Source of the DNA: Thiorhodospira sibirica ATCC 700588
GTDB lineage: Bacteria; Pseudomonadota; Gammaproteobacteria; Ectothiorhodospirales; Ectothiorhodospiraceae
NCBI RefSeq assembly: GCF_000227725.2
Contig: NZ_MU255056.1
Coordinates: forward strand, 1,466,747-1,530,746
Reading direction: 5' to 3'
Length of the DNA stretch: 64,000 bases
Numbering within the stretch: position 1 is the first letter of the stretch; every line of letters begins with the position of its first letter. Below are positions 7,170-47,214 of the stretch, piece by piece. Under the pieces are notes generated by a model. That model made no database searches. It was not told the DNA's origin and saw only the letters and a program-made list of their open reading frames with translations. The translations under genes and the position numbers were made by a program.

Positions 7170-7733
7170 ATGCTGCATGCAACCTCATTGACCATCGGCT
7201 TTAATGAAACGGAGGATCGCATTGTTGCGGTGTGCCGTGATCCGCATGGCAGCGGTGTGATTTTACTCTTGACCCGCCGTCTGGTGCGCCGTTTACTGCC
7301 CGCCTTAACCGCCTTGCTGGAGCATTCCAGTCTGGCTGCGAGCAAAGCGCCGATTCATCTGCGCTCGGAGGTCATTTTGATGGAACATCAGGCCGCGCTG
7401 TTTGCCGGCAAGCCCACCGGCCAAAGCGCTGCCAGCACTGGCGATAGCGAAACGCCCGCGCCGCACGGTGTCTCTGACGCCCGCCCCAGCCCGGTCAATC
7501 TGCACAATACCCTGGTGGTGGTCAGCAAGATTGATGTCACCACCCACGAAACTCATTTTTCCCTTATTTTTCAAGACACCGACGGACCGCAATTGTCGAT
7601 GAACTTTGATCGCAGTGATTTACATCGCTGGGTTGATCTGCTGCTGCGCACCGCCAATACCGCCGACTGGGGCATTGACATCAAGGCCGACTGGGTCGCA
7701 CCACAACACAGCAGCAAATTATCCGTCAGCTAA
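7170..7733 (+). CDS. protein of unknown function (187 aa)
   Basis: I do not recognise this family. The start ATG at 7170 follows AAGGGGAAT at reasonable spacing, 35 bases after mgtE. The protein has no signal peptide or membrane helix. It seems to have two beta-rich modules: an N-terminal one (about 1-75) with FNETEDRIVAVCRDP and an arginine/leucine-rich helix RRLVRRLLPALTALL, and a C-terminal one (about 110-180) with THETHFSLIFQDTDGPQLSMNF and a HRWVDLLLR helix. A proline/alanine/serine-rich linker (about 78-108) joins them. Codon use matches its neighbours, so it is likely a real native gene. It is convergent with the permease at 7737. Confidence 0.75.
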   Translation: MLHATSLTIGFNETEDRIVAVCRDPHGSGVILLLTRRLVRRLLPALTALLEHSSLAASKAPIHLRSEVILMEHQAALFAGKPTGQSAASTGDSETPAPHGVSDARPSPVNLHNTLVVVSKIDVTTHETHFSLIFQDTDGPQLSMNFDRSDLHRWVDLLLRTANTADWGIDIKADWVAPQHSSKLSVS

Positions 7734-7736
7734 GCA

Positions 7737-10244
7737 TCATGCGCTCTGGCGCAGGGTATAAAGCGGCGGTTTAAGCAACACCGAGCGCGCACCCAGCCAC
7801 CCCGCAAAGCCCACGCCCAGCGCACCGCCCAGCGCACCGATCCACCAGATGTGTGGATTAAAGTAAAAGGGCAGATCAAAGATGTGCAGCGCCAGCACAT
7901 AGCCAATCGCCGAGGCGCCGGCGGCTCCCAAAAGCCCGGCCAGCGCCCCCATGACGGTAAATTCGGCCAGCAGCCCGGCCAGCACCTGCGTGCGACTGGC
8001 GCCCAGGGTACGCAATACCGCCGTTTCATGCTGACGCAGGCTGCGAGTGGCCTGAATGGCGGCATACAGCACCGTCAGTCCAGCAGCCAGCGTGAACAAA
8101 AAGACATACTCCACCGCCAGCGAGGCGCGATCAATGATGTCGCGCACCTGCTCCATAATGGCGCGGATATCGAGGATGGTAATGCTGGGAAACTGGCGCA
8201 CCGACTCGGTTAACAGCGCCGTACCACCGCCTTCACCATCACCATCCAAACGAAAGCTGGTAATGTAGGTGGCCGGATGCGTCTCCAGTAAGTGCGGTGG
8301 GGCAATCACAAAAAAATTGACGTTGAAGGAATCCCATTCCACCGTGCGCAAACTGGTGATGGGTGCCTCCACGGACTGACCGGCAATGTTAAATTGCAGC
8401 GTATCGCCCAATGCCAGATTCAGGGTTTGTGCCAGCCCTTCCTCCACAGAAAAACCGTGATGGCTGCGTTCATCGGACCACCAGCGCCCCGCAACAATCC
8501 GGTTATCGGCCTGTAATTCGTGGCTAAATGACAGATTGAACTCGCGGGCCACCAGACGCTCGGCGCGGGGTTCTTCAAACTGCGCGGGGATGACCTCCTT
8601 GCCATTGATATGTGTCAGACGGCCCCGCACCATTGGGTGATAGGTGGGCGCCTCAATGCCATAATCCACAAAGAGCGCCTGCAATGGCTGGACTTGCTCA
8701 GGCTGCACATTGATCATGAAATGATTGGGCGCCTCCGGGGAGAGATTGCTTTCCCAGGAAGAAAGCAAATCCACCCGCACCATCCCCAACAGCAGCAAGG
8801 CCATAATCCCCAGCCCAAACGCGGAGAGCTGCACCGCGCTCAGACTGCCCCGGCGGCTGAGATTGGCAATGCCAAAGCGCACAGTAATCCCACCCCGCGC
8901 CCGTATCGGGCGCAGCACAATCACCAACCCCCAGGCCAACAGCCACAACAACAGAACCGTAAAAAAGGCCCCGATTAACACCCATAAGGCCAGATAAGGA
9001 TCTGCCGCCTGCCACAACAACAGCCCGCCCAAGGTGATCACAGCCAGCCCTAAAACCAGCCACATTGCCGGGGGTGGCGCATCCAGCTCACGGCGCAACA
9101 CCCGCAGCGGCGGCACCTGCCCCAGGCGCAAAATCGCCGGCAAGGCAAAGCCCAGCGCCGTGACCAGGCCAATCGCCAACCCCGTGAGCACCGGCCACCA
9201 CGAAATCCCCGGCAACATCATGGTAAACCACTGGGTGAGTAAAATAACCAGAATCTTCTGCGCCAGATAGCCCAGCAACACGCCAAGCAGACTGGCCACC
9301 AGCGCCAGCCAGAAAATCCGGAACATAAAGGTGCGCAAGACCAAGGCCCGCGAGGCCCCCAAACAGCGCATCACCGCACTGGTATCAGATTGACGGTCAC
9401 TGTAATGACGGGCCGCCACGCCAATCGCCCCCCCCGCCAGCAACACCGCCACCAGGGCGGCCAGCCCTAAAAACTGCTCGGCGCGGGTAATCGCCTGACG
9501 CAGCGGTGGGCTGGCCTCACGCGCATCTTCCAGACGCTCATTGCTCGCCAGCAGTGGCTTGACCTCTTGGCGAAAGCGCTCAATATCGGTTTCATCGCCG
9601 GCGACCAGAAAACTGTGCCGCACCCGGCTGGCTGGCGTTATCAAACCGGTGGCGGGCAAATCCTCCCAATGCATCATTGCCCGTGGGGCCAACTGAAAAA
9701 ATTCCCCGCCGCGATCAGGCTCATAGGTCAACACCCGACTGACCATCAGCGCCGCCTCGCCGACCTGCAAATAATCCCCCCGACCAATGTCGAGCTGCTG
9801 CATCAAGCGCGCTTCAAGCCAGATCTCGCCCTGCTCAGGGATACGCTCAATCACCCGTTCCGGGCCAAACAGCACATCACTGACGCGCAGCTGCCCGCGC
9901 AAGGGATAGCTTGCGGTCACCGCCTTGATTTCGGCCAGTTGCGTGGTCTGATCAAACAACACAATGCTGGGAAAACTCACAAACTGCGCCTGTAACAAAT
10001 CCAGACGCGCCGCGACCATCTTGACCTCCTCGCTGACCTCCGTGCTGGAACGCAGCGCCAGATCGGCCCCCAATAACTCGCCGGCTTGCAGCGTCATCGC
10101 GCGCTGCACCCGATCTGTGAAAAAATTCACCGAACTGATCGCCGCCACGGCAATCACCAACGCGGCTGCCAGAATGCGCAACTCCCCGGCGCGCCATTCA
10201 CGTACCAGTGAGCGCAGCGCATAGCCAACATGAAGCTTAGTCAA
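7737..10244 (-). CDS. FtsX-family ABC transporter permease (YbbP-like)
   Basis: Large integral membrane permease of the MacB/FtsX type, 835 residues. It has an N-terminal membrane helix (about 22-45), a long periplasmic domain, three helices around 260-400, a short helix group near 400-450, a second periplasmic domain, and a C-terminal three-helix FtsX block (about 700-830). This is the YbbP architecture. The start is TTG at 10244: TAG and TGA codons lie immediately upstream in frame, and the next ATG would remove the first helix. It overlaps the end of apbE by 8 bases. YbbP normally partners an ATPase (YbbA), but none is adjacent here. Substrate unknown. Confidence 0.85.
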   Translation of the reverse strand: MTKLHVGYALRSLVREWRAGELRILAAALVIAVAAISSVNFFTDRVQRAMTLQAGELLGADLALRSSTEVSEEVKMVAARLDLLQAQFVSFPSIVLFDQTTQLAEIKAVTASYPLRGQLRVSDVLFGPERVIERIPEQGEIWLEARLMQQLDIGRGDYLQVGEAALMVSRVLTYEPDRGGEFFQLAPRAMMHWEDLPATGLITPASRVRHSFLVAGDETDIERFRQEVKPLLASNERLEDAREASPPLRQAITRAEQFLGLAALVAVLLAGGAIGVAARHYSDRQSDTSAVMRCLGASRALVLRTFMFRIFWLALVASLLGVLLGYLAQKILVILLTQWFTMMLPGISWWPVLTGLAIGLVTALGFALPAILRLGQVPPLRVLRRELDAPPPAMWLVLGLAVITLGGLLLWQAADPYLALWVLIGAFFTVLLLWLLAWGLVIVLRPIRARGGITVRFGIANLSRRGSLSAVQLSAFGLGIMALLLLGMVRVDLLSSWESNLSPEAPNHFMINVQPEQVQPLQALFVDYGIEAPTYHPMVRGRLTHINGKEVIPAQFEEPRAERLVAREFNLSFSHELQADNRIVAGRWWSDERSHHGFSVEEGLAQTLNLALGDTLQFNIAGQSVEAPITSLRTVEWDSFNVNFFVIAPPHLLETHPATYITSFRLDGDGEGGGTALLTESVRQFPSITILDIRAIMEQVRDIIDRASLAVEYVFLFTLAAGLTVLYAAIQATRSLRQHETAVLRTLGASRTQVLAGLLAEFTVMGALAGLLGAAGASAIGYVLALHIFDLPFYFNPHIWWIGALGGALGVGFAGWLGARSVLLKPPLYTLRQSA

Positions 10245-17989: not shown

Positions 17990-19147
17990 TCAAGGTACGC
18001 GCTGGGCGCGACGTTGGTATAGGCCCATCATGAGCACACCCGCTGCGGCCAGCCCGGCGGCCATGAAATAAACGCTTTGGGCGCCGTGCGCCTCCCACAG
18101 ATACCCCGCCAGCAGGCTTCCCGTTGCGCCGCCCAGACCAAAGCCCAGCGAGGTGTACAGCGCCTGTCCGCGCCCTTGCAAGCGTCCGGGGAACAGTGCA
18201 TGAATCAGCGAAATGGCGGCCGCATGAAACAGCCCGTAGCTGGCCGCATGGAGCACCTGCACAAACAGCAGCACGGGGAAAATATCCGGCCACAGGGCCA
18301 GCAAGCCCCAGCGCAGACTGGTCAATATCAAGGCCAGCGCCAATAAACGCCCGGCACTGAAACGCACCAGCAAGCGGTGCGCCACCAAAAACACCGCCAC
18401 CTCGGCAAGCACCGCAAGCCCCCAGAGTTGACCAATCAGGCTGCGCGCATAGCCGTGCTGCTCCAGATAAAGGGTAAAAAAGGCATAGTAAGGGCCGTGG
18501 CTGGCCTGGATCAGAAAACACGCGCTCAGCAGGCTCAACACCCGAGGATCGCGCAATGTAGCGCGCAGCGAGGGGGCCGTGCTTGTTGGCGCCACCGCCG
18601 GGGCCTCGCGCACGCTCAGCGTGGTTAGCCACAAGGCACCCAGCAATAGCACCACCAGCCAGGGCAAGCGCGCGATATCCAGATATTCCAGAGCAGCGCC
18701 CAGCGCCATGACCGCCACGACAAAGCCCACCGACCCCCACAGGCGAATATGCGCATAGCGGTGCGTATGTTGCCCCAGGCTATTGAGGGTGGTGACCTCA
18801 AATTGTGGCAAGGCTGCGTTCCAAAAAAAGCTAAACAGCGCCATGACCACCGCCAGCCACCAATACCCCGAGTTTAGCAACACCCCACTAAAACACAGCA
18901 GGGCCAGCAAGGCCGCAATGCGAATCACCCGCATCCGCTGCCCCGTGTGATCGGCAATCCAGCCCCAGATATTGGGCGCAATGATTTTGGTCGCCAGCAC
19001 AATCGCCATCAACTCGCCGATTTGCGCAGGCGTCAAGCCCTGACCTTGAAGATACAATCCCCAGAAAGGGATGAAGGCACCGATGCTGGCGAAATAGAAA
19101 AAATAAAAGCTGGAGAGCTTCCAGTAAAATTGTGTCACAGTCACCAA
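17990..19147 (-). CDS. major facilitator superfamily transporter (HcaT/LacY-like group)
   Basis: Twelve-helix inner-membrane transporter, 385 residues, of the MFS_1-like group that includes E. coli HcaT and the nucleoside/sugar symporters. The N-terminus FYWKLSSFYFFYFASIGAFIPFWGLYL and the loop WGWIADHTGQRMRVI after helix 2 are typical. No ATG is near the N-terminus: the candidates are TTG at 19147, GTG at 19144 and GTG at 19138, none with a clear ribosome binding site. Substrate cannot be told from the sequence. Confidence 0.83.
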   Translation of the reverse strand: MVTVTQFYWKLSSFYFFYFASIGAFIPFWGLYLQGQGLTPAQIGELMAIVLATKIIAPNIWGWIADHTGQRMRVIRIAALLALLCFSGVLLNSGYWWLAVVMALFSFFWNAALPQFEVTTLNSLGQHTHRYAHIRLWGSVGFVVAVMALGAALEYLDIARLPWLVVLLLGALWLTTLSVREAPAVAPTSTAPSLRATLRDPRVLSLLSACFLIQASHGPYYAFFTLYLEQHGYARSLIGQLWGLAVLAEVAVFLVAHRLLVRFSAGRLLALALILTSLRWGLLALWPDIFPVLLFVQVLHAASYGLFHAAAISLIHALFPGRLQGRGQALYTSLGFGLGGATGSLLAGYLWEAHGAQSVYFMAAGLAAAGVLMMGLYQRRAQRVP

Positions 19148-19287: not shown

Positions 19288-19680
19288 TTACCAGCACGTC
19301 GCCGGGGTGCGGGTTTCGCCGCTGGCGTTGAGCGTTAGGACAATCCCGGTGCAACCGGTGTCATTGGCCTGAGATGTACCTGCTTTAGCATTGGCTGTTG
19401 CAGTGTAGCCGGTGGCGCTGGTATTGGTAATGGTTAGTGTGTAATAACCCTCTGGCGAGTTTTCACTCACGCCGATATTCACCAAGGTTCCATAACTAGC
19501 ATTATTCGCCCGCCATTTTTCCTGTTCCAACTGAATGCGCAGCAACGCCGTGTGGGCATCGGCGCGCTTGGACTTGCGCACATAATTGGCATAACTGGGA
19601 ATGGCAATGGCCGCGATAATGGCAATCACCGCCACTGCAATCATTAACTCAATCAGGGTAAAGCCTTTTTTGCTGCGCAT
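19288..19680 (-). CDS. pilE: type IV pilin, PilE-like
   Basis: Prepilin of 130 residues. The leader MRSKKG is cleaved before Phe by PilD; the mature part begins [22 protein letters not shown] with Glu5, the helix needed for assembly. Two C-terminal cysteines (about 108 and 129) can form the pilin D-region loop. The ATG at 19680 has AGGAG eight bases upstream; a GTG at 19683 is also possible. It is transcribed away from fimT-pilW-pilX-pilV. Short for a major pilin, so probably a minor pilin. Confidence 0.88.
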
Positions 19681-19756
19681 CACCGCATCTCCTCTATCAA
19701 TAAAAATCAGTATCGTTGGCCGTTTGCCACGGCTATTCCAACATAGTTTTAGACCG

Positions 19757-19887: not shown

Positions 19888-20418
19888 ATGCACACGCTTA
19901 CCCGACAGACCGGCGTCACTTTGGTGGAGCTGATGATCACCATCACGGTGCTGGCCATTTTGGCCAGTATTGCCAGCCCGGCCATGAATATTATGGATAA
20001 CCGGCGCCTGACAGCGGCTTCTCAGTCCTTATATGAAAACCTGCAGCTGGCCCGCACCGAGGCAATTAAACAGTCCCGCGATATGTTTTTTGTAGTTGAT
20101 CCGGGTGATGGCAGCGGTTGGTGTATTGGCATCAGCGACACTACCGGATGTGATTGTCAGCAAACCGCAGTGGCAGAAGAAGACGCCTGCACCATCATTG
20201 CGGCGGTGGAAAGCGGCAACGCCACGCGCGTGTTGCGTCGTGTCAGTGGAAATGATTTCCGCAACATCACCCTGACCGCACCTGCCGCAGCGAGCGAAGT
20301 ACGCTTTAACTTTGTACGCGGTACTGCTGATCAAACGCTAACCCTCAGCGTACAAACGCCCAAAAATCAGCAACGCAGCGTCACTGTCAATCTGGCCGGG
20401 CGCATTGCCTTGAATTAG
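19888..20418 (+). CDS. fimT: GspH/FimT-family pseudopilin
   Basis: Minor pilin of 176 residues that helps start pilus assembly. The cleavage site is in RQTGVTLVELMITITVLAIL, with Gly-1 and Glu5 of the mature protein. The GspH/FimT domain follows (LYENLQLARTEAIKQSRDMFFVVDPGDG). The two CDC and C residues (about 89-100) resemble the FimT/FimU core. AAGGA precedes the ATG. It is the first gene of the fimT-pilW-(DUF4351)-pilX-pilV run. Confidence 0.88.
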   Translation: MHTLTRQTGVTLVELMITITVLAILASIASPAMNIMDNRRLTAASQSLYENLQLARTEAIKQSRDMFFVVDPGDGSGWCIGISDTTGCDCQQTAVAEEDACTIIAAVESGNATRVLRRVSGNDFRNITLTAPAAASEVRFNFVRGTADQTLTLSVQTPKNQQRSVTVNLAGRIALN

Positions 20419-20445: not shown

Positions 20446-21276
20446 ATGCGCACCCTTTATTTACAGCGGCACAGCGCCTTCAAGCCCATCGCGCGCGCAC
20501 GCGGTTTCACCCTGGTTGAGCTGATGATCGGCTTGGTGATTGGGCTCATTGTTCTGGGAATTGTCGGCAGCATTTATATGAGCGTATTGGATGGTTCTGG
20601 CTATGCCCTGCGTTCGGCGCGTCTTAATCAGGAGGTGCGGGTGGCCATGAATTTTATGACCGACGACATCCGACGGGCGGGCTTTTGGAGCGAGGCACAG
20701 GCGGGCACACCAGAGAATCAATTACCTGTGAATCCCTTTACCCGCCGTGATGGGGCTGTGCGTGATGTTCATATCCTGAACAGTGGTAATTGCATCCTGT
20801 TTGCTTATGATGCCGATTTTGCGGGCGCGGGCGGGCAGGAGGTTTTTGGGTATCGTCTAAACGGAAATACCGTAGAAATGTTGATGGGGAATGCCAATCC
20901 TCCAACCAATAATTGTGCGCCGCAAAATGCCATCTGGACACCGCTGACAGACAAAACCGCTGTTGTGGTAACGGCGCTAAGCTTTGACACCGTCGGCTCA
21001 CGCTGCTTTAACACCACGCAAAATGTGGGGTGGACTGTCACGGCTGAAATCACTGAACCTGCCTGCTTGGCCGATGAGGCCGATGTGATCGTTGACGATC
21101 TTGATGGAGATGGAACGCCGGATGATTATGTAGAGCCCGATTCAGGCGATCTGATGGTAGAAAGCCGCCTGATCAATATTACCCTGGCGGGCAACCATGC
21201 CAACGATGCAAACCTTCGGGTTAACCTGCAAGAGACGGTCAAGATACGCAATAACCGCATCTTCCTTGTGCCGTGA
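20446..21276 (+). CDS. pilW: type IV pilus assembly protein PilW
   Basis: Minor pilin of 276 residues with prepilin leader ending ARARG|FTLVELMIGLVIGLIVLGIVG. The PilW-type C-terminal domain contains several cysteines and a short acidic stretch DDLDGDGTPDDYVEPDSGD near residue 220, which resembles a calcium-binding loop. The ATG at 20446 follows GGAGA. It lies 27 bases after fimT. PilW works with PilV, PilX and FimU in the tip complex. Confidence 0.87.
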   Translation: MRTLYLQRHSAFKPIARARGFTLVELMIGLVIGLIVLGIVGSIYMSVLDGSGYALRSARLNQEVRVAMNFMTDDIRRAGFWSEAQAGTPENQLPVNPFTRRDGAVRDVHILNSGNCILFAYDADFAGAGGQEVFGYRLNGNTVEMLMGNANPPTNNCAPQNAIWTPLTDKTAVVVTALSFDTVGSRCFNTTQNVGWTVTAEITEPACLADEADVIVDDLDGDGTPDDYVEPDSGDLMVESRLINITLAGNHANDANLRVNLQETVKIRNNRIFLVP

Positions 21277-21361
21277 GCCTCTATGAAAGCGGATTCGCGG
21301 GTTGTTCAGTCAATGCTACCCTCATGTAGATATTAACAAACAGCTACTGGAGGACAATACA

Positions 21362-21604
21362 GTGCCTTATGCAAGTGTACTGATCAAACACTGGGAATCC
21401 AAAGGCGAACGGCGTGGTAGACAGAAAGGTTTGCGAGAAGGTGAAAAAGCGCTGCTTAGACGCCAGTTATTATGCCGTTTTGGTGCCTTGCCTGAAGAAC
21501 TTGAACAACGCCTGGAGCAGGCTGAACCTGAAGAAATCGAATACTGGGCAGAACGTATTCTGGATGCGCCGGATTTAGCCGCTGTCTTTGCGGAAGCGGG
21601 TTAA
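21362..21604 (+). CDS. small DUF4351 protein, free-standing C-terminal domain of an Rpn-family protein
   Basis: An 80-residue protein that matches the C-terminal DUF4351 region of Rpn-family proteins: a charged helix with GERRGRQKGLREGEK, then LLRRQLLCRFGALPEELEQRL and a final ILDAPDLAAVF, as in the full-length protein at 30690-31628. The start is GTG at 21362 with a perfect GGAGG eight bases upstream. The frame is open back to 21302 and upstream residues look like a remnant of a longer Rpn protein, but the nuclease domain is missing. It sits between pilW and pilX, where no such gene is normally found. Family knowledge suggests such C-terminal forms can inhibit the Rpn nuclease; that role here is inference. 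Confidence 0.75.
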   Translation: MPYASVLIKHWESKGERRGRQKGLREGEKALLRRQLLCRFGALPEELEQRLEQAEPEEIEYWAERILDAPDLAAVFAEAG

Positions 21605-21634
21605 GTCGGCGTATCGGCAAGCAGTAAATAAACA

Positions 21635-21658
21635 GCCGAGTGCAACTCGGCGCTCCAT
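21635..21658 (+). repeat. family 2 palindrome
   Basis: GCCGAGT-GCA-ACTCGGC followed by GCTCCAT, 31 bases after the DUF4351 gene. The same arms and the same GCTCCAT tail occur at 31658-31681 beside the full Rpn gene, and a related copy in reverse at 12267-12290. Confidence 0.75.
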
Positions 21659-21687
21659 TGACACCACCCACCGCAGGAGTCCGTATC

Positions 21688-22961
21688 ATGCATAGACACC
21701 CTCCCCCGGTAGCGCTTCGGCCTGAAGGCAGGCCGTCAACGCGATACCGCCATACAAGCCGCCCCCGACCGTTGCCGCATCGCCAACGCGGCGCGATTGC
21801 CCTGTTTATGACCGTGATCATTCTGCTGGCGGTGACGCTCACGGTCATTTTCACCGCCCGTACTGCCTCGATGGAACAGCGCATGTCTGCCAATGAGGTA
21901 CGCGCCAAGCAAGCCGCCAATGCCGCGCAGGCGGGGTTGGAGCGGGCTGTGGCGTATGTGCAGGGCGGTGGCATTGATGTAAATCAATTATTTTTAGCCG
22001 ATTTGGATGCAAATGGAGCTGGAATGATCTATCGCGCACGCTTATGGGATCCTGATCCCAATGCTGCCCCGCCGCAATGCCCTGAAAATCCCGCAGCGAT
22101 GGGGACTAATAATCCAGACAGCACACGCAGCACCTTAATCTACTCCTGCGGTTGGAGTGACGATCTTTCCGCCCGAAAGGTTGCTATGATTCGCACAGAA
22201 GCAGGGCCATCTTTAGGATTTCCACCAACAAATCCTGTTATATCCAAAGGCTCAACATTGGTCAATGGTAATGCAAGGGTATTCAACCTGTTTAATAACC
22301 TAACTGTCTGGGCAGGCGGAGAATTAGATTTAAACGGAAATCCGGGTAATACCTTTGTTCGCGCTCCAGAATACCCTGTGCCTTCATTAGAGAATCTAAC
22401 CGACCTAGATCTATTACCAGGAAAACCTGCTAATTGTCAGGCCACCGGAAAGTACATTTGCACTTCAAATAAATCAGTGATAGGGCATGATATTATCGAT
22501 TATGATCTATCGCTTAGCTCATTATCTGGCCAAGATTTTTTCAGAAATTTTATGGGAATGAATCCGACAGATTATAAAAAAATGTTGCTACTATTATACA
22601 GACAGATACAACTATTAATCTAAGTAATGTCGCGGGACAGGTTGTATGGGTTGATGTTGCAGCAGGAAGCTATGCGGATCTCTCTGGCACGATAGGTTCA
22701 CGGGAGAATCCTGTGGTGTTGGTAATCAATGGAAATGCCCGCGCAACGGGGACAATGAATAAATTTTATGGAGTTCTTTTTATTACAGGAGATTTTAGAA
22801 GCGTTGGAAATCCAGAGTTTTATGGTTCATCAATTATTCAAGGGGAAATTGAGAAGGCAGCTGGAACTCCTTATTTCATCTACGATCCCGTCTCAGCTTC
22901 AAATGCGGGAAGCTTGGGACGCAGAAGTCCTGTTTCTGGTACTTGGCGTGACTGGTTATAG
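21688..22961 (+). pseudogene. pilX: pilX-like gene, frameshifted at a run of seven A
   Basis: Minor pilus assembly protein. The ATG at 21688 follows CAGGAG. The N-terminus is an arginine-rich leader ending HRQRG|AIALFMTVIILLAVTLTVIF, with the SMEQRMSANEVRAKQAANAAQAGLERA helix typical of PilX. A second domain with NGNARVFNLFNN and NGNARATGTMNKFYGVLF repeats (a DUF7305-like beta domain) follows. The frame stops at 22623, but the matching C-terminal half continues in another frame to 22961. The shift is at AAAAAAA (22576-22582): one extra A, or a -1 slip, would join the halves into one protein of about 424 residues. It may be phase-variable, programmed, a sequencing error, or truly broken. Confidence 0.78.
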
Positions 22962-22975
22962 AGAGGTAAATCATT

Positions 22976-24763
22976 ATGTACACATATTTAAAACAGCTTC
23001 GAGGTATAACCCTTATTGAGTCACTGATTGCCCTGGTGATTGTCTCCATTGGTCTACTTGCGGTTGCTCGCCTGCATGGCGATTTGATTGCGGGTAGCAG
23101 TCTATCGAAAGCTCGTACAGAAGCAGTGCAACTGGCAAATGCACAACTGGAGGAAATGCGAACCCGTGTTATGGAAGCGGATTGCACGGCATTGGCCAGT
23201 TTTCAGGGCGCCACAACAAGCATCACAGGCACCAATGCAGCAATGACACGGACAATAGCGCTCACGCATACCGCAAATCCCGACAGACTAGGTCTTGTGG
23301 TTTCAGTTGCCTGGACGGATGCAAAAAGTGATTCGCATACCGTTTCTGTACAATCCGAGGTGGTCTGTGATGACCCACTAGCTGCTGGTAGCGTAGCCAA
23401 AGGTGTTTTGCCGGGTGGCGGTATCATTGACTCTCCAACGGGTAGAGCAAGAATGGGAGAAGGAACAGTTGATCCAGAAACTCTTCGCGTCGAAGATCAA
23501 AATTTAGTGCCTTCAAATAGCGGAGATATACATGATGGAACATATACCTATATTGATGGGGATGAGGTAAAGCTCGTAGGAGAAGATGGTTATGTGATTA
23601 TGACTATGTATGGATCAACACCAGAAGAAGGCTTTAGCACCATCAATGGCCGAGTTTACTTTGATGATGACATGAAAGCAAAAGATGTTGATCCAGAAAA
23701 TATGCTCGTTATATCTTCAGACGCCTCTCATTGCACTCGAATATTTTCTGATGGTTCAGATTATGGTTCTGGACATACCGGGGGTAACGATTTTAAATAT
23801 ACATTATTTTCTGATGAAGGTTTTGATTACTTCATTTATCAGTGTTATGTCGGTGAAGGTTGGTATGGTAACATCGGTATTCATCGACTAGGCAGCGCCC
23901 CCGGAAGTGATCGCATCTGTGTAGGCCGCTCCGGCTCGACTGTTCCGGCTGAAGGTTCTGTCGTTGCTTGGGAAAACACTTTTCCTGCTTTGAGCACTCG
24001 TCGTCAATATCGCAGCTACGAAAAAATTGGTAGTGTATATAGAGCGGTGGGGATCGGTGTTGATCCTGCTTACGGTGACAATGGAAATGGTGACCGATAC
24101 GAAGCAGAACACTATGAAGACCATCATTTTCTTTTAGCTGAAATAAAAGGAAAAGCTGTTGATAAAAAATGCGAAGATCCTCTAGATGAAAAATCTGCAC
24201 TATTTGCAAGTAATTCAGGTAGGCATTTTTGCATGAATAAAGATGATCGACGTAAAAGTTTAGTTTGTGCTGACACGACTGAAATCAGCGAAGGTGGAAA
24301 GCCTATTTTAAGTATTAAAGGAAGGATAACGCTTGGCGGCAACCAGCATAATCCTTTGCTAGTTACTGAATTGAATATTGATGGAATTCCCTGCGCGGTT
24401 GGAAGCAGAGCAGTTGTCACGGGTAGCGTCAGATATGATTACATATGTGAATTATCTAATGTGGATGGCTATACAGCAGATAGCTGGGAAGGTAATTTAA
24501 GTATTAGCTACAGCGAAGCCGGCAAAATATGCCATATAGTCCCTAGCACCGCTTCAGGCTATCTCAAAGTTGGCAATCGCTTTGAAAATGGGCTTGATGG
24601 TGATTTAAAGAGCAGGATCAATTTCAGCGGATTACCTTTGGCTGATGTAGGTGGAGAGGCGGAGGAATCAGAAGAGGGCGCGTACCATGATGGATTTAAT
24701 TTTACGATTCATCAAAAAGGGTCTAACTGCCCTAACTGTGGCACAAATATTTGTACGCCATAA
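22976..24763 (+). CDS. PilV-like minor pilin with a very large C-terminal domain
   Basis: 595 residues, against about 150-200 for ordinary PilV. The N-terminus is a clear prepilin: LKQLRG|ITLIESLIALVIVSIGLLAVARLHGDLI, followed by the PilV helix LSKARTEAVQLANAQLEEMRTR. After about residue 150 comes a region of some 440 residues that I do not recognise: acidic, rich in Gly, Tyr, Asp and Cys, with no membrane segment, ending in a CPNCGTNICTP cysteine cluster. It could be a tip-exposed adhesin domain. The DNA here is more AT-rich than the neighbouring genes, suggesting acquisition. GAGAGG precedes the ATG. It ends the operon, with a terminator after it. Confidence 0.8.
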   Translation: MYTYLKQLRGITLIESLIALVIVSIGLLAVARLHGDLIAGSSLSKARTEAVQLANAQLEEMRTRVMEADCTALASFQGATTSITGTNAAMTRTIALTHTANPDRLGLVVSVAWTDAKSDSHTVSVQSEVVCDDPLAAGSVAKGVLPGGGIIDSPTGRARMGEGTVDPETLRVEDQNLVPSNSGDIHDGTYTYIDGDEVKLVGEDGYVIMTMYGSTPEEGFSTINGRVYFDDDMKAKDVDPENMLVISSDASHCTRIFSDGSDYGSGHTGGNDFKYTLFSDEGFDYFIYQCYVGEGWYGNIGIHRLGSAPGSDRICVGRSGSTVPAEGSVVAWENTFPALSTRRQYRSYEKIGSVYRAVGIGVDPAYGDNGNGDRYEAEHYEDHHFLLAEIKGKAVDKKCEDPLDEKSALFASNSGRHFCMNKDDRRKSLVCADTTEISEGGKPILSIKGRITLGGNQHNPLLVTELNIDGIPCAVGSRAVVTGSVRYDYICELSNVDGYTADSWEGNLSISYSEAGKICHIVPSTASGYLKVGNRFENGLDGDLKSRINFSGLPLADVGGEAEESEEGAYHDGFNFTIHQKGSNCPNCGTNICTP

Positions 24764-24807
24764 TCTTTAAATAGCTGCGATAGAAGAAGATTAAGTTAAA
24801 TTATTTT

Positions 24808-24847
24808 AAATGCGCCTTAATGGTTAGTCCATTGAGGCGCATTTTTT
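24808..24847 (+). terminator. rho-independent terminator of the pilus operon
   Basis: AAATGCGCCT (24808-24817) pairs with AGGCGCATTT (24835-24844), with AATGG/CCATT also pairing inside, and a run of T follows. It is 45 bases after the pilV-like stop. Nothing else is evident between it and the rfbA end at 25001. Confidence 0.9.
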
Positions 24848-25000
24848 AACGTCAGTATCCCATAATACCTCCAAAATCTTACCGTAAGACCAGCCTTCTC
24901 AAGATACACAATCAGATGAGTTCCTTAGACCAGCGGTATTTAAGGTAAGCCCTCCGGCATTACACCTGCATGATTCTGAAGTCAACAGCCGATCGTTTCC

Positions 25001-30689: not shown

Positions 30690-30998
30690 TCATGGCGTCT
30701 CGCGAAACACATCATCAAGTGTTTGTGCCTCGACGAATTGCTCACCCCAGCGTTCCAGCTGCTCAATACTGGCCCCGCGCAGCCGCGCTTGCGTCGCTTC
30801 ATCCAGCGTACCGAATCGCTTGTGTAATTGGCGTGTCAGCAGTGCACTCTCGCCTTCGATGCGTCCACGATCAATGCCCTGCTCAATGCCCTGCTCAATG
30901 CCCTGCTCAATGCCCTGCTCAATCCCCTGCTTCAAAAACCGTTGGGCAAAGCCGCTGACGGTGGTGGCATCGTTAGCATAGTGTTGTTGGTAAGTCAT
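30690..30998 (-). CDS. possible intragenic short form (RpnS-like) of the Rpn protein
   Basis: Inside the Rpn gene, in frame, an ATG at 30998 is preceded by GAGGA with seven bases of spacing. It would make a 102-residue protein starting MTYQQHYANDATTVSGFAQ and containing the IEQG repeats and DUF4351. In E. coli, published work describes such intragenic short forms as antitoxins against the Rpn nuclease. Here the signal is sequence only; no expression is known. The free-standing copy at 21362-21604 supports the idea. Confidence 0.55.
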   Translation of the reverse strand: MTYQQHYANDATTVSGFAQRFLKQGIEQGIEQGIEQGIEQGIDRGRIEGESALLTRQLHKRFGTLDEATQARLRGASIEQLERWGEQFVEAQTLDDVFRETP

Positions 30999-31628
30999 AC
31001 GTTCGTCCTCACTTAAATGAGCGTAGATGTCGATAAAGTCGAGGTATTTTAGCTGGCGGTCGCGGTCGGGTTCCAAGCTGAGCAGGCCACGCACCGCGTG
31101 CGCATAGACTTCGACCCGCTGTGACGGCGAATAGCGCATATTGGGCAGATTCAGCCGGGCAATGAGGTTGTCACTGGTATAGTGATCCTCGGCGCGTTGC
31201 CCACGAAAAGCATACGCGAGATAGCGAAACCAGAGATACTCGCCCGCATCACCGCTGAGGGTGAAGGGTTGTGGGCGTGCTTTACCCTGCAGAAAAATCA
31301 CCACGGGTACCAGTCGCTGGATGTTGAGCAACTCGCTGATGTCAACGCAGTAGTGAATCAGGCGGTGCACGGAAAAGCGCCGTGCCTGGGTGTCTTCCTC
31401 AAATAAAAACAGCAGTGCTTCGCGCCGCTGGTCGGGCCATTCCACCAGCAAGGGCGTGTCCAGTTCACGAAAACGCTCGCCAAGGCGTTCCTTGAGCTGT
31501 TCCTCACGCACCGGCAGGATGCGCACTGCGGGATCGCGCAGCCCCTCGGCCTCCTCGGGTGCGAACAGCTCAATGGCTTGTTGGGGATAGTCGAGGATCA
31601 GGTTTTTGAAGTTTTGATCGTGGCTCAT
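30690..31628 (-). CDS. Rpn-family recombination-promoting nuclease / putative transposase
   Basis: 312 residues of the Rpn (PD-(D/E)XK transposase-like) family, linked in E. coli to RecA-independent recombination and phage defence. The N-terminal nuclease domain (about 1-190) contains the expected acidic core (LLVEWPDQRREALLFLFEEDT near 60-80). The C-terminal DUF4351 region (about 255-312) has LLTRQLHKRFGTLDEATQARL and a final EAQTLDDVF. In between is a run of IEQG repeats. The ATG at 31628 gives MSHDQNFKNLILDYPQQAIELF, typical. A second internal start is likely (see 30690-30998). An IS-end remnant and a family 2 repeat lie just upstream. Confidence 0.88.
   Translation of the reverse strand: MSHDQNFKNLILDYPQQAIELFAPEEAEGLRDPAVRILPVREEQLKERLGERFRELDTPLLVEWPDQRREALLFLFEEDTQARRFSVHRLIHYCVDISELLNIQRLVPVVIFLQGKARPQPFTLSGDAGEYLWFRYLAYAFRGQRAEDHYTSDNLIARLNLPNMRYSPSQRVEVYAHAVRGLLSLEPDRDRQLKYLDFIDIYAHLSEDERMTYQQHYANDATTVSGFAQRFLKQGIEQGIEQGIEQGIEQGIDRGRIEGESALLTRQLHKRFGTLDEATQARLRGASIEQLERWGEQFVEAQTLDDVFRETP
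30872..30931 (-). repeat. 12-base tandem repeat (IEQG codons)
   Basis: Four perfect units of CAATGCCCTGCT from 30872 and a fifth that differs by one base. Each unit encodes IEQG. The repeat keeps the frame, so copy number could change without breaking the Rpn protein. Confidence 0.9.
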
Positions 31629-31636
31629 AGGGTGAT

Positions 31637-31681
31637 TTAGAACCTGTTCAAAGACCAGCCGAGTAAAACTCGGCGCTCCAT
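31637..31681 (+). mobile_element. solo IS left end plus family 2 palindrome
   Basis: TTAGAACCTGTTCAAAG at 31637-31653 is identical to the left end of the IS5-type fragment at 46232-46248, including the TTA. No transposase follows. The family 2 hairpin GCCGAGT-AAA-ACTCGGC-GCTCCAT comes right after (31658-31681). This is in the hrpA-rpn spacer. Confidence 0.65.
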
Positions 31682-31710
31682 AATGCCAGCGCTCCCGCCA
31701 CAGGCTACCT

Positions 31711-34700
31711 CTATGAGGGGGTTTCGTGTAGCTGTTGGGCGAGGCGTTTGACCGAGATTTTGGCGGTGGTGCCTAATTCCTGGGCAAACAGCGATACCCG
31801 CAGTTCTTCAAACAGCCAGCGCGGGTCGTGTGCCAGCACCTCTGCCGGGAGTGCCGGGTCGTATGGGCGACGCTGGGCAAGACGTGCTTTGCACTGTTCC
31901 CACAGCGGCAATAATTCCACGCGGATGCGCCGGTCTTTGTCGGGGGCCTGATCGACCCGCGCCAGGCGGCGTTCAATCGCCCGCAGGTAGCGCGGCAACT
32001 GGCTTAGCCACGACGCTGGGGTTTGCCAGATAAAGCCGGGATAGAGCAGATATTGCAGCTGATCTTCAATATCGGCACAGGCCTCAATCCACGACAAGGG
32101 CAGATTACCCCGGGTTTGTTTCAGGCGCGCCCGGTATTGATCGAGAATCTCGCCGACCAAGAGGGTCAATTCAGTTGCCGTGGCTACCAGTTGAGCACGC
32201 CCAATTTCTAATCTGTGGGCAAACTGTGCTGCATCGGTGGGCCAGGGATGCACCAGAAAACAGCGCTGGATGCTGGCCTTGAGCAGATCGTCTTTGAGGG
32301 CCTCGCAGCTGTCGATGGCGGTGTATTTCAGGCACAGATCTTCGATGCCGGGGAGCTGGCGTCGCAGATATTTGAGGGTATCGCCACACTGCAACATAAA
32401 CAGGCGTCCCAGGCCGTGCTGATGCAGAATGCGGGCACCCAGCGGGGTATCACACAGCACCAGATCGACACAATCCCCTTGATCCTGCAGCGCTGGATAG
32501 CCGCGCAGCGACATCCCATGCTGCACAAAATCCACAGATTCTGGCAGCGGGCCAAAATCCCACTGTGTCAGGCGGGTGCGCTCAAAGCCTTGGGGACGGG
32601 CGGCGGCGTGGGCCTGCTGGGCCACGGCCTGTAAATTTTGGCGCAGGGTAGCCAGATCGCGCTCTGCCGCAACGGTGTTGCCATCGGCGTCGAGGATGCG
32701 ATAACGCATTCGCAGATGCGCGTCCAGCAGCTCCACGCGCCAGGCATCCGGGGGAATCACCACCCCGGTGATCTGCTGCAAGGCACTGGCAAAGGGCGCC
32801 AATAATGGCCCTTCGCGGCTTTCCAGGCGCTCTAGCGCGGCGCGGGCAAAATCCGGGGCGGGGACAAAATGCCGCCGCAAGGCTTTGGGCAGGCTTTTAA
32901 TCAGGGCGGTGAGTTTTTCTTCCAGCAGGCCGGGGACCAGCCATTCGCCCAGCCAGTCTTCCACGGTGTTCAGCGCCGCAGCTGGCAGGGTCAGGGTCAC
33001 GCCATCGTCGGGCTGTCCGGGTTCAAAGCGATAGGTGAGCGGCAGGCGCAGGCCGTGGTGTTCCAGCCAGTCGGGGAACTGCTCCGGCCCCAGCAGCGCC
33101 GGGGATTGCTGCAACACCTGTTCACGGGTGAGCCGCAAGCACTGCGGCTGTTTGCGGCTAGCCTGGCGATACCAGTGTTCCAGACTGGGGCCATCGCAGA
33201 CCTGTGGCGGCAACTGTTGCGCATAAAAATCATAAATCACCTGTTCATCGGCCAGCCAGTCACGCCGCCGTCCCTTGGCTTCCAGGGCCTCAATCTCGGC
33301 AATCAATGCCTGATTATGCGCCAGAAAGGGCGCCCGGGTACGCAGTCGGGCATTGACCAGACCTTCACGGATAAACAGTTCACGCGCTGCCTGCGGATGG
33401 CTCTGGGCATAGTTGACGCGCTTTTTGGGGTTAATGATCAGACCATGCAGACTGACTTGCGCATAGGCCCCCACCCGCCCGCTACGTTCCTGAAAATGTG
33501 GCTCATAGAGATGTTCTTTGAGCAGGTGTGCGGTCACCTCCTCAACCCATTCAGGGGCAATGGCGGCACATTCACGCGCAAATACCCGCGTGGTTTCGGT
33601 GATCTCGGCGGCCAACACCCAGCGCGGTGGCTTGCGGGCCAGTGCCGAGGCCGGATGCAGCAAAAAGCGCCGCTGGCGGGTGCCCAGATAATCGCCTTTT
33701 TCCGTGCGCTGGCCAATGCTGCTGGGCAGTCCTGCCAATAAGGCGCGGTGCAGGCCCACGGTATTGATCTCAGCGGGCGGCGGCGCGGGTGACACTGAAG
33801 GCGGGCGGTGCTTGGCGGGCGTGGGCGCTGGCGTTGCAGACTGCGCCCCGGTGCGCGGCAATTCGCTCAGGGCGGCACGCAGTTGACCGTGTAATTCGTG
33901 CCATTCGCGCATCCGCAGATAGGAGAGAAAATGGGTCTTGCACCAGGCGCGTAATTGATTGCGCGACAGATGCCGGGCCTGCTCGTGATACTGATCCCAG
34001 AGATTGAGAATACCGAGAAAATCCGAGCGCGTATCACGAAAGATAGCATGCGCCTGATCGGCGGCCTGACGCGCTTGGGCGGGCCGTTCACGCGGGTCTT
34101 GCAGGGCTAGAAAACTGGCCACAATCAACACCTCCGGCAAAGCTCCCTCACGTTCAGCCGCCAGCAGCATGGCGCCCAATTGCGGGTCCAGCGGCAGGCG
34201 CGCCAGCTGTGCCCCCAGCGCGGTGATCTGGCTCTGGGCATCCACCGCCTTGAGTTCGGTCAATAGCTGGTAGCCGTCTTTGATCTGGCGGGTATCCGGT
34301 GGATCAATGAAAGGGAAATCCGCCGGATCGCCCAGCCCCAGACTCGCCATCTGCAAAATCACTGCCGCCAGATGGGTGCGCAGAATTTCCGGATCGGTGA
34401 AGGCCGGACGCGTGGCAAAATCCTCTTCGCTGTATAGCCGTATACAAATCCCCGGCCCCAGGCGGCCACAGCGGCCACTGCGCTGCTGGGCAGAGGCTTG
34501 CGAAATTGCCTCCAGCGACAGCCGCTGCAGGCGCGAACGCGGGCTGTAACGGGCAATCCGTGCCAGCCCGGTATCAATGACATAGCGAATCCCCGGCACC
34601 GTCAATGCGGTTTCCGCCACATTCGTGGCCAGAATGATGCGCCGTCCACGATGCGGCTGAAAGGCGCGCTGCTGCTCGGCGGCGGACAGACGTGCATACA

Positions 34701-46183: not shown

Positions 46184-46234
46184 GATCAATCTTTAAGACT
46201 TTACCAAGCATGTGCTATCTAGATAGCGTCGTTA

Positions 46235-46336
46235 GAACCTGTTCAAAGTCTTCTAAAAATAGCCGATAATAGCAAGATGAGACATACCTATCCGAGTGAC
46301 CTCCGTCGAGAGCCGTTCGAGCAGATTCGTGCCTTA
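46235..46336 (+). mobile_element. left end of an IS5-type element, with truncated transposase start
   Basis: GAACCTGTTCAAAG begins at 46235 and is preceded by TTA. From 46277 an ATG encodes MRHTYPSDLRREPFEQIRAL, the N-terminus of an IS5-family (DUF4096-type) transposase. Coding sense ends at the TTA at 46334-46336 where the next IS starts. An open frame runs on to 46402 but only by fusion with that IS. Confidence 0.75.
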
Positions 46337-47214
46337 GAAGCTGCTTGGAAACTACCGCTTCAAACCAAGCGGTTAGCCATCAGTCGAATCATTGCGAGAT
46401 AAATCCAGGCTTCGCTGCTCGACATCAAGCGCTCGTAGTCCTTGCTCAGACGGCGTGAGTGGTTCAGCCAGCCAAAGGTCCGCTCAACAACCCAGCGTCG
46501 CGGCAACAAAACAAACCCTCGGCGCTCCTTGGGACGCAAGACCCCCGTCAAGACGAAACGAAAGCGCTGGGCAACCCAGTCAACCAGGCGTCCACTGTAG
46601 CCGCCGTCAACCCAGATTTTGCGCAGCTTTTTGCAATGACCGGGGAGATGGCGCAGGAGTTGGCGCGCCCCATCACGGTCTTGCACGCTGGCGGCGGTGA
46701 CAACGACGGCCAGCACCAGCCCCAGGGTATCGACCAGAAGATGGCGTTTGCGGTCCTTGATCTTCTTGCCGGCGTCATAGCCGCGCTCACCAGGGATCGA
46801 CGCTTTGGCTGTCCAGACACCCGGCGCTTGGATGCTTGTGACGCCCGTGGCGTTGCTGTAGCCGAGCGCGTAGCCTGTCATGAAGACGCTGCCAGGTTCC
46901 ATCGCGCCGCCAGCGATTGAAGTCATAGTACACTGCCGACCAGGCAGGAAAGTCGTGCGGCAGCTGACGCCACTGGCAGCCCGTCTGCAGGACATAGAAG
47001 ATCGCATTGATGACTTGGCGCATGCTGAGCTTACGAGGGCGCCCGACCGGGGCGCTCGGCAACAGCGGCTTGATCGCCTTCCAGGCGCCCTCGCTGAGGT
47101 GACTCGGGTAGCGTTTTTTTGCGAATCTTCTTGCTGCATTTCTAGGGCATGTGGGCCACTTCCTAGAAAAAATCGTAGGTTAAGCCATTACGCGATTAAT
47201 TTCCAAACAGCCTC
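46337..47214 (-). mobile_element. IS5-family (IS1031-like) insertion sequence, 878 bases
   Basis: The ends are imperfect inverted repeats: GAAGCTGCTTGGAAACTA from 46337, and GAGGCTGTTTGGAAATTA reading inward from 47214 (15 of 18 match). TTA flanks both ends (46334-46336 and 47215-47217), the TNA-type target duplication of this subgroup. It carries one damaged transposase on the minus strand. Confidence 0.82.
46360..47139 (-). pseudogene. IS5-family transposase, frameshifted
   Basis: DDE transposase in two frames. The N-terminal part, [19 protein letters not shown] through [16 protein letters not shown] to LDSQSV, lies in one frame and stops at 46787; the C-terminal part, [18 protein letters not shown] through IWVDGGYSG to [12 protein letters not shown], lies in another and ends at 46360. 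The usual residues joining LDSQSV to [12 protein letters not shown] are missing, so some bases were deleted near 46808. A second frame change is at a run of seven A near 47115. Catalytic D, D and E are all present but in different frames. Confidence 0.8.

Follow-up and report, generated by a model that had tools for sequence, protein, structure and literature searches.

A long pilX-like gene is divided between two reading frames

A long PilX-like minor pilin gene of Thiorhodospira sibirica ATCC 700588 is divided between two reading frames that meet at a run of seven adenines (A7), and on balance we favour a recent single-base slippage in this run as the event that turned the modular pilin gene off in this strain. 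The gene lies in a 64,000 nucleotide stretch of contig NZ_MU255056.1 (positions 1,466,747 to 1,530,746), hereafter the window, to which coordinates refer unless another stretch of the same genome is named.

The upstream frame (21688..22623, + strand) encodes 311 aa of a long PilX-like minor pilin, putatively a modular tip protein. It runs from ATG 21688, preceded approximately 8 bases upstream by AGGAG, to TAA 22621-22623, with GTG 21640 an alternative start for ORF callers. The final 13 residues of its product, past Lys298, lie outside the frame of the family. The downstream frame (22578..22961, + strand, 126 aa counted from 22581) encodes the C-terminal part of the PilX protein, comprising predicted beta-solenoid coils and a WRDW end. 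A TAA at 22575-22577 closes it on its 5′ side; from 22578 it is open as far as TAG 22959-22961, 14 bases ahead of the pilV ATG at 22976. No earlier stop interrupts either of the frames used, and each part carries a single copy of NGNAR. The downstream frame is offset by -1 from the upstream frame, and therefore the frame change is confined to 22578-22620. The A7 run occupies 22576-22582 (+ strand) and is read as AAA AAA A(TG) in the upstream register. The coordinates given in the first-pass annotation, from which this work started, are all correct.

In 49-nt stretches of first-order random sequence, a run of at least seven is expected at a rate of 2.7% with the local composition and 1.2% with that of the window, whilst the rate observed in the window's AT-rich stretches was 7.7%. 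With a background of 1-8%, the coincidence of A7 with the crossover is suggestive and not overwhelming.

Homology joins the two frames at the A-run

Comparison with intact relatives confirmed that the 5′ and 3′ frames are one gene, joined at the A-run. Against a profile of 11 rows, the closest 11 of 15 intact relatives, the 5′ part scored 324.5 bits and the 3′ part 155.9 bits, whilst the joined reading with its crossover at the A-run reached 497.4 bits. Shifting the crossover toward the stop made the score drop nearly stepwise, to 484.1 bits once the zone's opposite limit was reached, and the junction aligns without a gap (YKK/NVAT in the window, YRDNVVT and YRENVAA in relatives). The proposals that the protein continues past the stop in another frame, that the second NGNAR stretch belongs to the same protein and that A7 is the joining point are thus all upheld: both halves match the same family, one NGNAR stands on each side and the profile score peaks with the crossover at the run.

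Pairwise comparisons agree. The 5′ part matches the 5′ parts of nine intact relatives at 42-53% identity (E ≤6.3e-54) and the 3′ part matches 11 places in intact relatives at 41-53% identity (E ≤8.3e-23), with an hhalign probability of 99.9% for the 3′ part against a family profile in which it is itself included. Among 58 genomes, matches to the 5′ part occurred in 27 and matches to the 3′ part in 15, the genome of T. sibirica included. Within that genome the 3′ part is single copy, and searches with the 5′ and 3′ parts recovered no second intact copy; the only other match to the 5′ part was the distant canonical pilX.

It could be argued that the C-terminal half is a separate protein with its own start, and a GTG at 22713 does lie in the 3′ frame. 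However, this is the first start in that frame and conserved residues would be lost by using it; moreover, the half on its own is found nowhere in the order but in the window. An independent C-terminal protein was rejected, as the 3′ frame runs for 44 codons before any start codon appears, and we regard two separate proteins as highly improbable.

The break is seen in one genome and neither half is decayed

All 15 of the places outside this genome that were recovered with the 3′ part are single CDSs of 400-463 aa in which both parts are present. The question of whether the second half is decayed in relatives, raised in the first-pass annotation, can thus be answered: it is intact there, within the same frame as the first half. 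Across 47 genomes of the order, a profile of the 3′ part identified 24 places in 21 genomes, and the open frame around the match measured at least 401 aa in 23 of the 24 places and 127 aa in the window. At the aligned site (39 nt) the longest A-run in the 15 relatives examined was 4, and none of the 15 had an A7 tract or a two-frame layout. The genus is represented by one genome in the compared set. A contig scan returned 14 loci, including Thioalkalivibrio, Methylonatrum and Solemya symbionts, none of which was named as the window's own species.

The window keeps 32 of the 35 columns of the 5′ part, and 20 of the 21 columns of the 3′ part, that are invariant in 11 relatives; mean identity to relatives is 0.44 for the 5′ part and 0.48 for the 3′ part, and the neighbouring pilW and pilV have open reading frames. 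An old, decayed pseudogene was excluded on the retention of conserved residues. The absence of decay leaves a very recent or revertible break, a leaky or efficient bypass, or a base-calling error.

A PilX head on a predicted beta-solenoid

The 5′ part contains a PilX_N domain (residues 34-85, E 9.3e-11, 42 bits against the Pfam cutoff of 25.5), and for the long PilX genes the family libraries yielded PilX_N and nothing else. We modelled an intact relative from Thioalkalivibrio sp. AKL19 with a 15-row alignment (mean pLDDT 80.9, pTM 0.62). Residues 154-375 of this model match ice-binding beta-solenoids, namely 7BWY (Z 13.2, rmsd 3.2, 166 aligned) and FfIBP 4NU2 (Z 12.1, rmsd 3.2, 166 aligned). 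The whole model matches the pilin ComZ (PDB 6QVI) with Z 10.4 and rmsd 12.6 over 253 aligned residues, the large rmsd suggesting a different orientation of the domains. A PDB sequence search found no match to ComZ, nor to any pilin, at E up to 1.

By extension from this relative, the window protein would also fold as a solenoid. The break falls at residue 279 of the 399 in the model, at the end of helices 255-280 and ahead of strands 297-371, where the model is predicted best. Most likely, the two NGNAR stretches are coils of one solenoid flanking the break, and the truncated product most likely lacks the second half of this solenoid. The gene is not a canonical PilX; it would encode a large modular minor pilin with a PilX-type head and a beta-solenoid, resembling ComZ.

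ComZ of Thermus thermophilus is the closest parallel among characterised pilins that we can offer. Its authors argue for a position at the pilus tip and for DNA binding, and name FfIBP 4NU2 as the closest fold to the ComZ solenoid (PMC6561018). ComZ and, by prediction for the relative, the window family share a type IV pilin head carrying a beta-solenoid of the ice-binding type. The window family differs from ComZ in its PilX_N head, in a solenoid of approximately 220 residues as opposed to approximately 380, and in its location in a fimT-pilW-pilX-pilV operon; the window gene is moreover out of frame. That the solenoid binds DNA would be a guess, as a common fold does not show a common function. 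We found no paper on solenoid PilX proteins in the literature searched at title and abstract level.

The gene belongs to a second, modular minor-pilin operon

The broken gene lies in an operon of otherwise intact minor pilins. A fimT/GspH-like gene (19888..20418, + strand; GspH E 1.1e-11) is followed by a pilW-like gene (20446..21276, + strand; N_methyl E 6.5e-7, PRK10557 E 1.7e-14, below cutoff), which holds the same position in relatives, and pilX is succeeded by a long pilV-like gene of 595 aa (22976..24763, + strand; TIGR02523 E 6.3e-10, below cutoff). ORFs at the pilV place in two relatives measure 566 and 422 aa. A PilE/ComP-like pilin gene (19288..19683, - strand; ComP_DUS E 1.7e-23) is divergent from this set. 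The same arrangement, fimT-pilW-pilX-pilV with a divergent pilin on the opposite strand, is present in Thioalkalivibrio ALJ21, the STE_6 MAG and Methylonatrum, and no pilY1 was seen in the stretches fetched for these three.

In those three relatives pilX directly follows or overlaps pilW and a DUF4351-type gene is absent. In the window, a 411-bp gap (21277..21687, + strand) separates pilW from pilX and contains a partial DUF4351 ORF (21302-21604, E 4.1e-8), which shares 44% identity over 66 aa with the C-terminus of a DUF4351 gene at 30693-31772 (- strand). GC content is 39-52% across 22000-24900, the 3′ half of pilX together with pilV, against a window mean of 57%. The low GC and the stretch with the partial DUF4351 ORF suggest rearrangement or acquisition of this part of the operon. 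A short repeat of 22-26 bases was also observed at 21633-21658 and 31656-31681, and at 18223-18244 of stretch L070.

A complete and intact canonical operon, fimT-pilV-pilW-pilX-pilY1, exists elsewhere in the same genome (stretch L075, 7801-14217); its genes were named from order, size and the look of their sequences, pilX alone having been matched by search. The canonical PilX of this genome resembles the window gene in having a PilX-type head, and the window's 5′ part matches it at E 2.7e-5; it differs in being 178 aa long and in preceding a pilY1-like gene, whereas the window operon is without pilY1. The window operon is a second, modular set. The earlier description of the broken gene as the pilus tip calls for amendment, since the canonical tip operon with pilY1 is the intact one elsewhere. 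A further PilX-like ORF of 518 aa was noted in the same genome (G000:C4:451264-451449, L102), with a weak match to the 3′ profile (E 6.5e-4).

Broken genes elsewhere in the assembly

The genome contains 853 A/T runs of at least seven. We surveyed the window and 20 further stretches, 464 kb in all or approximately 15% of the genome. Of 116 A/T runs of 7-8 in this sample, 49 are inside unbroken coding sequence, whereas at 5 the frame or the gene changes. Four of the five look like ordinary gene boundaries, and the fifth is in an IS5-type transposase in two frames. A Viterbi survey of the sample gave 94 same-strand frame switches, 9 of which lack a plausible start. In a control drawing 60 ORFs, 11 of them unusable, it recognised 48 of 49 artificial shifts; it does, however, model the AT-rich pilX region as non-coding and misses pilX, and may miss similar AT-rich breaks. 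A Pfam check of six of the nine switches without a start, with those in L068, L074 and L080 outside it, returned one split IS5-type transposase, one split glycosyltransferase (by weak matches), three pairs of different genes and one undecided case. Broken genes in this assembly seem few, and the survey does not support the idea of a generally poor assembly.

The IS5-type transposases (DUF4096 + DDE) are in two frames at both L061 7553-8537 and window 46363-47187 (- strand). In the L061 copy the change of frame coincides with an A7, and the element may use a slip site. Beside the two copies is a 105-bp repeat of 98% identity in opposite orientation (L061 approximately 7703-7807; window approximately 46230-46340). 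The glycosyltransferase-like gene (L066 18142-18998) extends over several frames, contains a C8 run at 18781-18788 and has Pfam matches below the curated cut-offs.

What caused the break

The cause of the break is likely an ordinary one. Of the three options offered in the first-pass annotation, namely phase variation, programmed slippage and a broken gene, the last fits best. A slipped-strand indel at A7 in this lineage would have put the gene out of frame by -1. Its main product would be the truncated protein of 311 aa, which retains the pilin helix and the first solenoid strands but lacks the C-terminal 30% of the full-length protein, corresponding to the second half of the solenoid. As the change lies in a homopolymer it could in principle revert, and a small fraction of ribosomes or RNA polymerases may still cross A7. 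With an entire canonical minor-pilin operon, pilY1 included, located elsewhere, the strain could probably tolerate the loss. The main rival is that the run was miscalled by one during sequencing or assembly, the gene being intact in the organism. Such a miscall would give exactly the same picture, and the lack of decay suits it no less than it suits a very recent mutation. The neighbouring genes are open, the window is the sole broken place among 24, and for singleton frame breaks with intact homologues PMC3711429 expects sequencing errors rather than indels. However, at least 49 A/T runs of 7-8 were read without a frame break in the 464-kb sample, and a survey sensitive to nearly all of its test shifts returned few other candidate breaks. 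We consider a sequencing error less likely, albeit a contender to be taken seriously, and continue to favour mutation by slippage.

Readings in which the run serves a function fare less well. Selected phase variation, with slippage toggling the modular tip pilin within a population, would suit a surface appendage gene with a homopolymer at its break and no decay; 7 nt is the minimum length of poly-A/T screened in PMC3711429, and a homopolymer switches pilC of the pathogenic Neisseria (PMC5953494), like the window gene a pilus-associated gene with a homopolymer in its reading frame. However, the pilC tract as given there is 9-20 G and common to strains, whereas A7 is found in one genome, is of ordinary length in that genome and is missing from all 15 relatives examined. 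It is also shorter than the cut-offs of G 9 and T 11 used in that source to count tracts in Neisseria as phase-variable, and with one genome of the genus no length variants are visible. The literature searched by titles and abstract openings contained no description of pilX being switched at a poly-A tract. The claim of phase variation thus gained no positive support, and we deem it quite improbable. To much the same extent we doubt that the break is a leaky or programmed site where a ribosomal -1 slip or transcriptional slippage would yield both a short and a full protein. In its favour, T_AAA_AAA and AAA_AAA_A are two of the A-rich heptamers given in PMC3711429 as consensus sites of frame transition in bacteria, and a seven-A cassette is reported there to give 10% frameshifting in E. 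coli; transcriptional insertions grow exponentially with run length (PMC5574713), and the L061 transposase of the same genome is split in two frames at an A7. The magnesium chelatase genes described in PMC3711429 likewise join two frames by -1 at a poly-A site, although they form a cluster of 23 genes from six genera whilst the window gene is a singleton. Against such recoding, the run or the two frames occur in 0/15 relatives, on which grounds a conserved programmed frameshift was rejected, and no downstream RNA structure was found in a folding test against 200 shuffles, pseudoknots lying outside its scope (z -0.13, 85 of 200 shuffles folding as well). Furthermore, the register is T AAA AAA A, itself of a kind listed in PMC3711429, and not A AAA AAA, the IS5 split carries the opposite offset (+1), ribosome sliding was weak in a cell-free system even at A9-A10, below eleven A's (PMC4363877), and many genomes show selection against slippage-prone runs from nine A/T (PMC1088944). 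A low leak at A7 is possible, whilst a programmed site, as the first-pass annotation had also entertained, is unlikely. Lastly, a broader version would hold that a ComZ-like solenoid tip pilin of Ectothiorhodospiraceae is kept under slippage control at A7, at replication, transcription or translation. Slips would then set the amount of full-length receptor, and the population of this free-living bacterium would be mixed with respect to adhesion or DNA uptake. The pilin would perhaps serve a second type IV pilus as its receptor for DNA or surfaces. We judge this reading improbable.

Implications

If the frameshift is real, a strain that has kept a complete canonical tip operon would have lost, or would be switching, a modular protein of the pilus tip. 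More consequential than the frameshift may be the family itself: solenoid pilins with a PilX head, encoded in an operon lacking pilY1 and present at 11 other places in the order (E 8e-44 or better). Its closest pilin by fold is the proposed DNA receptor of Thermus, which offers a testable guess as to what the long PilX proteins may do.
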